Virus record (IMG/VR): IMGVR_UViG_3300024516_000008
Span: 1-21,363 of that record
Direction: 5' to 3' (one strand)
Source: a virus
DNA length: 21,363 nucleotides
Positions 5,811-21,363 of this stretch are shown in pieces. The notes under the pieces are model-generated. The model saw only the letters and a program-made list of their open reading frames with translations, ran no database searches and was not told where the DNA came from. The position numbers were made by a program, and so were the translations under genes. The number at the start of each line of letters is the position of its first letter. Position 1 is the first letter of the stretch.

Positions 5811-6158
5811 ATGGTCGTTTTCCAGGCCAAAGAGGATGTAGCTAACAGGCGCAGAGTAGTCCTCAATGGACGGATAGTGACTATTATCGACATCTCTGGG
5901 CGCGAAGCTAAAATTGCTGAAGACGGGCAATGGTATAAGCATTCTGAGTTCCACCCCCTTGTCAAAGAAGACATCCAAGTCGAACATATCAATGCCGTAA
6001 TAGACAAGATTGCTGGGAAGCCTATTGCTACCCTGAAACTCCTTGACACGGGGCTTCAATTCGTGTTGGAAGACAATACTAGGGTAGATGTACGGTATGG
6101 TGCTAGTGAAGAGCTAAATATCATAGTGTATGATTCGAACGGAGAGAGAGTTCTGTAA
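5811..6158 (+). CDS. Hypothetical small beta-rich protein
   Basis: This 115-aa protein is not recognised. Alternating hydrophobic strands (RVVLNGRIVTIIDISGREAK near residue 14) and the similar strand pattern at the C-terminus suggest two small beta domains or one beta sandwich. No cysteines, membrane segment or signal peptide are seen. The ATG directly follows the stop of the previous gene, and GAGGAAGAGGA within that gene's end supplies the ribosome binding site. Its own stop overlaps the next start (TAATG). It is therefore translated as part of the packaging operon, just before the small-terminase candidate. Confidence 0.7.
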   Translation: MVVFQAKEDVANRRRVVLNGRIVTIIDISGREAKIAEDGQWYKHSEFHPLVKEDIQVEHINAVIDKIAGKPIATLKLLDTGLQFVLEDNTRVDVRYGASEELNIIVYDSNGERVL

Positions 6159-15558: not shown

Positions 15559-15602
15559 GCTTCATTTAGTCTATAAGGTGTTATTTATCAAATAGCAGCA
15601 AA

Positions 15603-15702
15603 ACTCGCCTGTCATACGCAGGCTCAGGTGCGAGTCCATTGTCTTTTTTGAAGTAGCGGTCCTGAGCCCATAGACATACATCCGATGAGGAAAAAGACAA
15701 TG
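15603..15702 (+). promoter_or_regulatory. Switch-like mRNA leader covering the start of the scaffold-position gene
   Basis: Three helices can form in this 141-base leader. Helix A is ACTCGC (15603-15608) with GCGAGT (15630-15635), enclosing CCTG/CAGG. Helix B is GGCTCAGG (15621-15628) with CCTGAGCC (15661-15668). Helix C is CATTGTCTTTTT (15637-15648) with AAAAAGACAATG (15691-15702), which includes the whole ATG. B crosses both A and C, so A with C (start hidden) and B (start free) look like alternatives, or a complex pseudoknot forms. The rest of the leader, 15559-15602, is AT-rich and could hold a promoter. No known riboswitch class is recognised. Confidence 0.55.
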
Positions 15703-18177
15703 ACTATCAAGATTGACAAAGTACGAAAAGCTCTTAGGCAGATCACAGCCGGTGATCCCGGCGAACTTGATCCCGCTGTTCCACCCCACGGCGGAACTCA
15801 CGATACAGACATTGATATCGCGGACTACGTGGTAAAACTTGTCGATACGAATTCTCCCGACACGCCGGATCTAGAAACCCGTGCTTATGAAGGCGGAACT
15901 GAGGAAGACGGCACTGCCGATACTCCTCCCTACGATGGCGAGTCCAGCGTAGATGGTATTCCCGTCATTCCTGACACGATGGCGGCTAAGACCAATCGTG
16001 GCTCGACCCCGCTTGGTGGTCCTATTGGTGGCGACCCGCAGCCCGCAACTTCGGCCGCTGGCGACGACGCTGGCGACGCTCAGAAGAACAAGGGCGGCGG
16101 CGGACCTGTGGTACAGCTTCCTGACACGATGCAGGATGAAGTATCCGTGGCCCCGGATGATCCTCACGCCTCAGTAGCCCTGACGACACATGATCTCGTT
16201 GATCTCCGCTCTATCATGGGCGAGAAGGCCGAGACCAATGTGGGGAAGGCAGTAAGAGTTCTTCAGTGGCTTGACCGCAACAAGAGGAACCCGAAGAGGG
16301 AAGCTGTAGAGGCAGGGCTTGATAAGTGGAATCCAAATAAAGAGCAGTCTCTTGAGGCTCAGGCTCGATATGGTTTTGCTTACCTGCACACTGACTCTGC
16401 GGCTGATTCGAAGAATGCCGAGAGGACCCAGAAGGTTCTGTCTTGGCTCAAGAGCTTCCTGACAGGCCGTAAGCTAAAGGTCGCTGCTGACTTCCTCAAG
16501 AGTGCGGAAGCAAAGAGCGATCCTGAGCTGGCCAAGCAGGTATCCGTCTGGTACAAGGTAAATGCAGTAGAGCTAGGCCCAGGTCTTCCGACAAGCGAAG
16601 AAGTAGGCATTGATGACATCACACTCTATGGCCCTCAGGATGATTCCCCGAGTCATAAGCCTGCTGCGGCAGATGATGGCTTCACGGAGCCGAAGGTCGT
16701 TAGTCTTGATGACGTTCCGTTCAAGGACCCGGAGAGGCATCCAGCCGAAGCCGGTAACGAGGTAGACGAGCAGTCTGGTTCGCCTGCCCAGGATGCTAAT
16801 GCCGTAGATAGCGACTCGTTCAGCGCCAAGGGTGATGATCGGGCAAAGGAGTCTAATTTGCCGACAGCAAAGACTGTAGAAGGTTATGGTCATGGCTATG
16901 CTGATGAAATCGCTGCTCCCCCGGTCCCGGGTCTGCCTGAGGCACCCCCGGAAATGCCGCTTCCGCCTGAAGAGCCTCTTCCTGGCCTTCCTGGCGAGCC
17001 TGTGGCACCTGGCCTGGAGGGACTTCCGGGTGGAGAGCCTGGACTTCCGGGTGGAGAGCTTGGACTTCCGGGTGGAGAGCTTGGACTTCCGGGTGGAGAG
17101 CCTGGACTTCCTGGCGAATTGCCGCCTGAGATGCCCGGACTTCCTCCGGTTCTACCTGAGGATAACGGCGGGATGCCCGGTCTAGAGCCGGAACTGCCCG
17201 CCGAGGGTCAGGGCATGCCCCCAATGGGTGGCGGCGGAGCGCCCGGTGGCGGCGGCGGTCTTGCCCCTGCTGCTGGACCTGACCAGGGACTAGAACAGAG
17301 CCTAGAAGAATGGCTAGCAGAGGAACTGAGAGAGCCAGTGCACCAAGATCCAGCAGAATCCGCACACATAGAAATGCTGTCCAATTTCGATGACGTTGGT
17401 CCGATTCTTTCCTCTGATATTGTCATGTCTCTATATGGCGAAAGTCAGGAGAATCCTCACTGGAACATCGACATCAAGGGTCGTCCTGTTGCCCGTGTTG
17501 AGCTAAGTGACCAGCCGAAGCCAGAAGAAGTACGCTCGACGTTCCTCTCTGGTCCTTACGCTGAGAACATTGCTCAGGCGATGGAGAAGGTTGGTGTAAG
17601 CGAGGTTCTCAAGGCGATCAATGCGAAGCCTTATGCTGCACGAATCGAAGTTGGCGCGCTTGCCAAGAAGATTGAAGCTAAGATGACGGAAGCTTACGAG
17701 CAGAAGTTTGCCGAGAAGGTAGGCGAGCTGCGAGATCGCTTCCTAACGGCAGCCAAGATCGCACTTGCAGGCTACAACAATAACTTCTTCCGTGGTGAAG
17801 ATCACGCTCTAAAGGCTGCGCTCTGGAGTGAGCTGAAGAGACTGGGTGTCCGAGATGCATCGAAGGCCATTGAAAGTGGTTTCGATGAGGGATCGGTTCC
17901 ATTCTTTGAAGCAATTCTGAGCAAGGCTGAGGAACTCATGGACCTGCCTGACGAAGCACGAGATGCTATCGCCAAGGCGATTCCTGAGAGTAATGCTCTT
18001 GTGGCAGCGGGTGCTGACACCGGGAGCGAGTTGCCCAATCACGAGACTCTAGCCTCGAAGCTGGAGCAGGGAAATGTCCCATTCGAGAATGCAAGCCCGA
18101 ATGTAACAGCTTCCCGCTCTGACTTGCGAGACGGTCTTCGAGAGAGGGTCAAACTATCAACGTTCCGGTCCAGCTAA
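15700..18177 (+). CDS. Scaffold-position head protein with collagen-like segment
   Basis: This 825-aa protein lies between the protease and the capsid genes, where scaffold or internal core proteins are found. The start at 15700 has GAGG 9 bases upstream; an ATG at 15685 overlaps that site and is rejected. Residues 1-160 are acidic, Gly/Pro-rich and disordered. About 170-300 is helical. About 405-527 is Gly/Pro-rich with a collagen-like GLPGGE run. About 540-770 is a helical domain (LTAAKIALAGYNNNFFRGED near 685). The disordered, acidic and helical composition fits a scaffold or a large internal head protein that is cut by the protease. The collagen-like middle is unusual for a scaffold. Expression is probably controlled by the structured leader in front. 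Confidence 0.7.
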   Translation: MTIKIDKVRKALRQITAGDPGELDPAVPPHGGTHDTDIDIADYVVKLVDTNSPDTPDLETRAYEGGTEEDGTADTPPYDGESSVDGIPVIPDTMAAKTNRGSTPLGGPIGGDPQPATSAAGDDAGDAQKNKGGGGPVVQLPDTMQDEVSVAPDDPHASVALTTHDLVDLRSIMGEKAETNVGKAVRVLQWLDRNKRNPKREAVEAGLDKWNPNKEQSLEAQARYGFAYLHTDSAADSKNAERTQKVLSWLKSFLTGRKLKVAADFLKSAEAKSDPELAKQVSVWYKVNAVELGPGLPTSEEVGIDDITLYGPQDDSPSHKPAAADDGFTEPKVVSLDDVPFKDPERHPAEAGNEVDEQSGSPAQDANAVDSDSFSAKGDDRAKESNLPTAKTVEGYGHGYADEIAAPPVPGLPEAPPEMPLPPEEPLPGLPGEPVAPGLEGLPGGEPGLPGGELGLPGGELGLPGGEPGLPGELPPEMPGLPPVLPEDNGGMPGLEPELPAEGQGMPPMGGGGAPGGGGGLAPAAGPDQGLEQSLEEWLAEELREPVHQDPAESAHIEMLSNFDDVGPILSSDIVMSLYGESQENPHWNIDIKGRPVARVELSDQPKPEEVRSTFLSGPYAENIAQAMEKVGVSEVLKAINAKPYAARIEVGALAKKIEAKMTEAYEQKFAEKVGELRDRFLTAAKIALAGYNNNFFRGEDHALKAALWSELKRLGVRDASKAIESGFDEGSVPFFEAILSKAEELMDLPDEARDAIAKAIPESNALVAAGADTGSELPNHETLASKLEQGNVPFENASPNVTASRSDLRDGLRERVKLSTFRSS
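17020..17103 (+). repeat. Four tandem 21-bp repeats encoding a GLPGGE(P/L) heptad
   Basis: Units at 17020-17040, 17041-17061, 17062-17082 and 17083-17103 share GGACTTCCGGGTGGAGAGC and differ only by CCT or CTT at the end. A degenerate fifth unit begins at 17104. The near identity of the DNA points to recent slippage or unequal exchange, so copy number may vary between relatives. The unit encodes G-L-P-G-G-E-P/L, which is collagen-flavoured but has a seven-residue period and so is not a true Gly-x-y repeat. Confidence 0.9.
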
Positions 18178-18961: not shown

Positions 18962-18975
18962 GTAGCGTAAGCTAG

Positions 18976-19004
18976 CGGGAGCGGGTGAAAGCCCGCTCCC
19001 GTTT
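18976..19004 (+). terminator. Rho-independent terminator upstream of the major capsid gene
   Basis: CGGGAGCGGG (18976-18985) and CCCGCTCCCG (18992-19001) form a perfect 10-bp GC-rich stem with the loop TGAAAG, followed by TTTCTC. It starts 14 bases after the stop of the decoration-protein gene. The U-tract is short, so termination may be partial. Confidence 0.75.
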
Positions 19005-19007
19005 CTC

Positions 19008-19019
19008 AAATTCGAATTT
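19008..19019. promoter_or_regulatory. Perfect 12-bp palindrome AAATTCGAATTT, possible operator
   Basis: This palindrome lies between the terminator and the structured RNA of the capsid leader. A dyad of this size at a probable promoter region could bind a dimeric regulator, but no protein or promoter can be matched to it. It may also arise by chance in an AT-rich stretch. Confidence 0.3.
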
Positions 19020-19021
19020 CA

Positions 19022-19094
19022 CCTCGTTTTGAGCAACGAGGCCGCGTTATCTCGGTTTACCTGAAACGCTCAAGGTGCAACGGACGAAAGTCCG
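19022..19094 (+). ncRNA. Pseudoknot-capable structured RNA in the major capsid leader
   Basis: CCTCGTT (19022-19028) pairs with AACGAGG (19035-19041), closing the loop TTGAGC (19029-19034). The whole loop is complementary to GCTCAA (19068-19073), so a pseudoknot can form, most easily if the top two T-A pairs open. Between them GTTT (19055-19058) can pair with AAAC (19064-19067). CGGAC-GAAA-GTCCG (19081-19094) then forms a stem with a GNRA tetraloop. The order of stems matches no ribozyme or riboswitch that I can recall. It may be a 5' leader element controlling capsid translation or stability, or the 5' part of a separate small RNA. Confidence 0.55.
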
Positions 19095-20981: not shown

Positions 20982-21363
20982 ATGGCCGATCCAATTGGCA
21001 GCGTAGGCGGAACATTTGGCGAAGGCCCGGGGCGCGTCCCCGGCGAGCGTATATTTCAAGCAGTAGACACGCTCGCACGCCTAGCTATAATCGAGACAGC
21101 AGATGATAGGCAGATCATTCTCGTTGAAGAGAATGGTTTGCTTTACCGTATGGACCGGCAGGAAACGACTGCCGGTGCTAACGAAGTTTCTGCGCCTAAT
21201 GGTGGCGTATGGAAGCTTGTCAGTTTTGATGGCATTCAAGGCAACACTGGTCCCACTGGTCCCGGTGGCGGACCTATCGGCCCCCAGGGCGAGACTGGAC
21301 TTACAGGCACTCCCGGCGGTCTAGGTTCTCAAGGTCTACAGGGTGAGACTGGAGCCGAAGGTG
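20982..21363 (+). CDS. Collagen-like fibre protein, 3' end beyond the right edge
   Basis: From the ATG at 20982, with GGGAG 7 bases upstream, the frame stays open to the right edge for 127 codons. Residues 1-85 form an N-terminal head domain starting MADPIGSVGGTFGEGPG, with ILVEENGLLYRMDR and GVWKLVSFDG. From about residue 86 it turns into Gly-x-y repeats (GNTGPTGP, GPQGETGLTG, GSQGLQGETG). Phage collagen-like proteins of this layout are usually trimeric head or tail fibres, with the N-terminal part attaching to the virion. Placement after the capsid genes favours a head fibre, but a tail fibre is possible. Confidence 0.8.
   Translation, partial: MADPIGSVGGTFGEGPGRVPGERIFQAVDTLARLAIIETADDRQIILVEENGLLYRMDRQETTAGANEVSAPNGGVWKLVSFDGIQGNTGPTGPGGGPIGPQGETGLTGTPGGLGSQGLQGETGAEG

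Follow-up and report, generated by a model that had tools for sequence, protein, structure and literature searches.

A scaffold-like gene in the head region of a large tailed phage

A set ratio of scaffold to capsid protein is required for building a phage head. To our knowledge, the mechanism that adjusts scaffold output to assembly is unresolved in P22 and other classic phages. Could the RNA ahead of a scaffold-like gene contribute to this balance? Here, we addressed this question in a 21.4-kb virus record (IMGVR_UViG_3300024516_000008), the whole 21,363 nucleotides of which are referred to as the window. It spans the head region of a large tailed phage, with genes for the terminase, portal, prohead protease, a 549-aa protein, an 825-aa protein, a structural protein and the major capsid protein, in the same order as in large phages such as PaBG and BcepSauron, where capsid identity is ~33–35%. 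At the 3' end of the window, a collagen-like Gly-X-Y repeat protein starts (20982–21362).

The structured leader described below lies directly 5' of the gene for the 825-aa protein, which is sited between the prohead protease and major capsid genes. Residues 401–530 of this protein consist for 54% of Pro and Gly. Its position, acidity and disorder agree with a scaffold, and from position and composition we infer that it is a prohead core or scaffold-like protein. The structure prediction was too poor for use (pLDDT 38). The sole PHROG match, phrog_20988, covers the C-terminal part (residues 572–774) and is labelled 'ATPase'. As the Walker A motif is absent from the protein and its four aligned relatives, this label is probably wrong. 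Given this putative function, gene order and composition make it plausible that the dose of the 825-aa protein relative to the capsid protein matters.

The leader contains an RNA pseudoknot conserved among relatives

With the 825-aa protein and the capsid protein, we retrieved five viral contigs of the same clade, in which these proteins are 60–64% and 89–91% identical to those of the window, respectively; the upstream 549-aa protein retrieved no relatives when used as query. Two of the five contigs have identical leaders, which leaves five distinct leaders including that of the window. These represent a single clade of large tailed phages, with L004 and L005 close to each other, and the element precedes the same gene in all of them. 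In L005, the entire leader (5851–5985) is free of stop codons and in frame with the gene, where a GTG at 5851 opens an 860-aa frame; this open leader frame is absent in the other leaders and is probably incidental. A 5.3-kb contig under a Candidatus Omnitrophota MAG (L045, JAQUAP010000069.1) encodes a capsid protein 54% identical to that of the window, and may come from a phage, either one that infects this bacterium or one whose contig was binned with it.

A sequence-only reading of the window had pointed to three complementary pairs in this leader: a 6-bp helix (P1), an 8-bp helix (P2) and a 12-bp helix that covers the start codon (helix C). The coordinates of all three are exact (Table 1), the start codon is right (GAGG lies upstream and the relatives' starts align), and P2 indeed crosses both P1 and helix C. 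That reading left a choice between structures that exclude each other and a pseudoknot, and for P1 and P2 the relatives point to the latter. Across the five leaders, the 14 pairs of P1 and P2 are standard pairs in 70/70 alignment cells, and three of them have changed on both sides (U-A/C-G and G-C/A-U in P1, A-U/G-C in P2). In a control where the partner was slid by 1–3 columns, pairing fell to 10–50% with zero double changes. P1 contains G-U pairs in four leaders, and the P2 arms stay paired although their spacing ranges from 32 to 80 nt, which argues that the fold acts as RNA and not as DNA. As just one invariant U joins the two helices, they should stack as an H-type pseudoknot. Judged from this alignment, P1 and P2 thus form an H-type pseudoknot in the mRNA leader that is conserved as RNA. 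The compensatory changes that the sequence-only reading had proposed as a check are found in P2, and in P1 as well. P2 has a single covariation event because the leaders are few (five, one clade) and L004 and L005 are close.

The conservation profile follows this fold. The P2 5' arm is 93% identical, versus ~52% for the flanks. Most arms, the loop ends and the tail after P2 are 80–93% identical, with values of 70% for the P1 5' arm and 76% for the P0 3' arm (see below), and conservation is ~52% in the upstream flank, the middle of loop L3 and the run-up to the start.

A further helix, P0, tentatively extends the fold on its 5' side. This 4-bp helix, GCAG/CUGC (3' arm CTGT in the window), is pairable in 5/5 leaders with one G-U pair, and a fifth pair, broken in two leaders, is swapped A-U/U-A in the other three. 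Together, P0, P1 and P2 comprise 19 pairs that are 97.9% paired, with four double-changed pairs. P0 probably crosses and interlocks with P1, which would tentatively make the element a double pseudoknot. Two other helices were considered. The hairpin GCCTG/CAGGC (15607–15611/15617–15621), a candidate for a conserved upstream hairpin, is broken in 2/5 leaders without covariation and was rejected. An extended P1 (RCCUG/CRGGU) is pairable throughout without double change and was retained as a possible alternative.

Table 1. Coordinates of the leader features, the downstream gene and the capsid leader. Positions are those of the window unless a contig is named.
Feature	Sequence	Position	Strand	Remarks
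A+T-rich element	TTATTTATCA / TTATNTATA	15581..15590	+	few bases 5' of the structured RNA; relatives have TTATATCTA, TTATATATA or TTATCTATA
P0 5' arm	GCAG	15595..15598	+	pairs with 15609–15612; tentative
P1 5' arm	ACTCGC	15603..15608	+	6/6 pairs kept in 5/5 leaders; two pairs changed on both sides; G-U in several leaders
P0 3' arm	CTGT	15609..15612	+	directly adjoins P1 5' arm
P2 5' arm	GGCTCAGG	15621..15628	+	8/8 pairs kept in 5/5 leaders; one pair A-U in three, G-C in two
Single-base junction	U	15629	+	joins P2 5' arm to P1 3' arm; invariant
P1 3' arm	GCGAGT	15630..15635	+	pairs with 15603–15608
Loop L3		15636..15660	+	25 nt in the window, 30–73 nt in relatives; middle free
L3 conserved ends	CCATT, GCGGT	15636–15640, 15656–15660	+	from the conservation profile
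Helix C 5' arm	CATTGTCTTTTT	15637..15648	+	within L3; perfect reverse complement of 15691–15702
P2 3' arm	CCTGAGCC	15661..15668	+	pairs with 15621–15628
Tail after P2	CATAGA	15669..15674	+	90% identical; CAGAGA in two relatives
Shine-Dalgarno-like	GAGG	15687..15690	+	aligns with GAGG or AAGG in relatives
Helix C 3' arm	AAAAAGACAATG	15691..15702	+	spacer plus start codon
Start codon, 825-aa gene		15700–15702	+	GAGG at 15687–15690; aligned with relatives' starts
825-aa gene		15700..18177	+	downstream of the leader; acidic, Pro/Gly-rich, mostly disordered or helical protein
Capsid leader RNA		19025–19085; L002 9085–9152; L003 9126–9230; L004 9119–9191; L005 9270–9342		

Loop L3 may mask the start region

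Next to the pseudoknot, the window holds the 12-bp complementarity between L3 and the start codon. Perfect 12-nt inverted repeats with arms at most 60 nt apart are expected 0.095 times per shuffled window, and the window has exactly one. Pairing between L3 and the start region is predicted at -18.8 kcal/mol in the window (p 0.001 versus shuffled L3) and at -9.6 to -13.7 kcal/mol in the relatives (p 0.03–0.48), where the ribosome-binding site pairs with other L3 bases than in the window. Swapped combinations of L3 and ribosome-binding site between phages score as well as matched ones, so helix C shows no covariation. The helix C of the sequence-only reading is thus not conserved pair by pair in the relatives.

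A looser form of the switch fared better. In each phage, L3 prefers its own ribosome-binding site to most others in the genome, as 0/12, 1/47, 11/30, 7/55 and 5/50 of those other sites score as well. L3 opens with an invariant CCAT, which complements the AUGG start of the relatives. With the pseudoknot formed, the predicted accessibility of the start codon is 0.00, 0.03, 0.23, 0.13 and 0.00 in the five leaders. The start is masked more strongly by its own L3 than by shuffled L3 in each of the five leaders, if weakly so in three (p 0.003, 0.09, 0.10, 0.17 and <0.003). Combining the four relatives by Fisher's method, by hand, gives ~p 0.002, or a marginal ~0.04 without one of the two close relatives. 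These predictions are suggestive, though not decisive, of an L3 that masks the start region and its ribosome-binding site. As P1/P2 and helix C have no bases in common, they are not mutually exclusive, contrary to the other half of the choice described above, and any gating of L3 by the knot would be steric or protein-mediated.

A candidate translational operator

The knotted leader RNA probably controls the amount of 825-aa protein that is made. As to how, we favour, at a probability of roughly 0.45, a cis-acting translational operator of a prohead core or scaffold-like gene, in which the knot, masking by L3 and a putative trans-acting factor act together. Its core would be the H-type pseudoknot of P1 (6 bp) and P2 (8 bp), probably stacked and probably interlocked with P0. 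Right after P1, L3 begins with a conserved CCAU(U), complementary to the AUG(G) of the start. By default, L3 would tend to lower initiation by pairing with the start region, its Shine-Dalgarno sequence and the spacer. A trans-acting factor could recognise the near-invariant P2 and loop bases, the likeliest candidates being the 825-aa protein itself or a further head protein. By shifting the L3 balance, such a factor would set how much 825-aa protein is made relative to capsid protein. In this scheme, the factor, the direction of control and the feedback are conjectural.

Known systems provide parallels. The scaffolding protein gp8 of phage P22 is autoregulated post-transcriptionally, and we know of no operator RNA structure for P22 gene 8. 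The leader described here may likewise match scaffold gene output to capsid assembly, although this phage and its protein are unrelated to P22 and gp8, and feedback here is putative. In the case of ribosomal protein S15, the start region is located inside the knot and the ribosome is trapped. Unlike in that bacterial ribosomal gene, the knot here ends ahead of the initiation site, with the 3' end of P2 18 nt before the Shine-Dalgarno sequence. The S15 knot, in the leader of Escherichia coli rpsO, serves as a translational operator for autogenous control (PMC3014915).

The closest parallel in layout is T4 gene 32, whose product gp32 binds a leader pseudoknot that is followed by an unstructured A+U-rich start region, over which the protein spreads (PMC3014915, PMC535899). 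Like the gene 32 operators of T4, T2 and RB69, the leader places an H-type pseudoknot with two stems ahead of a start region rich in A. Unlike in T4, the region after P2 (15669–15702) is A-rich without UUAAA repeats and is pairable with L3, the stems are 6 and 8 bp with a possible third interlocked helix and a long, start-complementary L3, and the gene appears prohead core or scaffold-like and does not encode a single-stranded DNA-binding protein. As both the UUAAA-repeat start region and the single-stranded DNA-binding gene are lacking, the leader is not a member of the T4 gene 32 type. In our best reading, it would work like that pseudoknot, through an analogous, putative protein binding. 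A 2010 review considered T4 gene 32 perhaps the sole viral pseudoknot that serves translational autoregulation (PMC3014915). The leader described here is a further candidate, in a different class of gene.

The T4 parallel also raises the alternative that the pseudoknot alone is the operator. A bound protein would then spread to or occlude the ribosome-binding site as gp32 does (PMC3014915, PMC535899), and the complementarity between L3 and the start would be incidental, arising from a pyrimidine-rich loop and a purine-rich start. This agrees with the far better support for P1/P2 than for L3 pairing, with the unconserved middle of L3 and with its length of 25–73 nt. The invariant CCAT that complements the relatives' start, the masking that on average exceeds that of shuffled L3 in 5/5 leaders and the lack of the T4 operator's UUAAA repeats speak against it. 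We regard a pseudoknot-only operator as possible but somewhat doubtful, and an operator that includes L3 masking as the preferred reading.

An A+T-rich element and a stabilising role

Upstream of the knot lies a conserved A+T-rich element that may be a promoter -10 region or a part of the leader. In each of four related genomes (~100 kb, or all 78 kb of one record), it is intergenic solely at this leader. A repeated late-promoter role was rejected, as among the close matches, essentially just this one is both intergenic and before a gene. In the window, the -10-like element (15581–15590) ends 4–5 nt ahead of P0 (15594/15595), so that a transcript could begin at the knot. The knot might then stabilise the mRNA as a 5'-terminal or processing element, by blocking 5'-end-dependent decay or positioning an RNase cut, with no translational switch. 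T4 gene 32 provides a precedent for processing beside a knot, with an RNase E cut at -71 (PMC3014915). Against a stabilising role, the A+T-rich element has no sigma-70-like promoter match, and the conserved bases reach into the loop ends and the CATAGA tail, beyond what a simple stem needs. We consider this explanation unlikely relative to the translational operator.

The element occurs once per genome in one phage clade

Several riboswitch classes are laid out as compact H-type knots with conserved loop bases near a ribosome-binding site. A small-molecule riboswitch whose aptamer is an H-type pseudoknot would share this general layout with the leader, and would be expected to recur before different genes or in different lineages; no such recurrence was found. 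A covariance model built from the leaders finds one copy per genome in the five genomes and no further match at E ≤ 10 in 11 records. It has no match in the whole records of the more distant phages PaBG, GR11A, Peetri, BcepSauron, Afa-NA1 and PhiXhv-12. Rfam 15 yielded no leader match at the gathering score, and none at E up to 10 for the window or up to 5 for L004. In L041, a relative by its capsid protein (45%), the gap before the counterpart gene is short. The element is confined to the leader of one gene, once per genome, in one phage clade. With a structural gene downstream, no linked metabolic gene and no Rfam match, a riboswitch is improbable.

Several candidates from wider searches were rejected. 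An exact-motif match, L010, lies within a coding gene and is due to chance. A relaxed pattern scan of viral contigs gave 33 matches, four of which are the already known clade. Among the other 29, a correctly spaced 6-bp P1 and a non-coding context never occur together, and nearly all of these matches are located within long reading frames, including the best of them by covariance model (L079, 25 bits), which lies within a 543-codon frame and has no P1. By eye, the leader faintly resembles the anticodon and T arms of tRNA-Asp, and a tRNA or tRNA-like remnant was rejected since ARAGORN found no tRNA in it and Rfam nothing.

On the basis of one sequence, the pseudoknot is unremarkable, as 0.475 arrangements of a 6-bp and an 8-bp helix of this H-type are expected per shuffled window; with z = -0.88, the leader's folding energy is in the normal range. 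It is the conservation and covariation in relatives that set it above chance. A DNA-level element, such as protein-binding inverted repeats or promoter architecture, or pure chance is thus highly improbable, given the double changes, the G-U pairs, the kept pairing across P2 spacings and the single match that the covariance model gives in each of the five genomes, with no other at E ≤ 10 in 11 records.

A second structured leader precedes the capsid gene

The leader of the major capsid gene contains a second conserved pseudoknotted RNA, common to the five phages, with 9 pairs that are 100% paired (Table 1). It consists of a hairpin CCTCG/CGAGG, in which two pairs have changed on both sides, and a loop GAGC that pairs with a downstream GCTC. 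Its motif AGGCYGNNTTATCNNGG occurs once per genome, and it has no Rfam match at the gathering score. The motif that the two leaders have in common (GCTCA-GGTG) is not significant (p 0.18–0.87).

In an extended scheme, the interlocked P0-P1-P2 fold would be a double-knotted operator through which the scaffold or core protein sets its own dose versus capsid, with L3 hiding the start, and the capsid leader would be recognised by this protein or by a partner from the head, forming a two-leader circuit. We regard this full circuit as speculative and, as a whole, unlikely. A conserved knot at a scaffold-like gene, next to a second structured leader at the capsid gene, provides a small, cloneable RNA with which the matching of scaffold output to assembly can be tested.

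At ~18975–19008 in the window, and at the same place in L002–L005, the capsid leader is preceded by a strong, G+C-rich hairpin with a short run rich in T after it; the arm sequences of the hairpin differ between the phages. This hairpin is terminator-like or may be a processing site, even though high expression is required of the capsid gene that follows.
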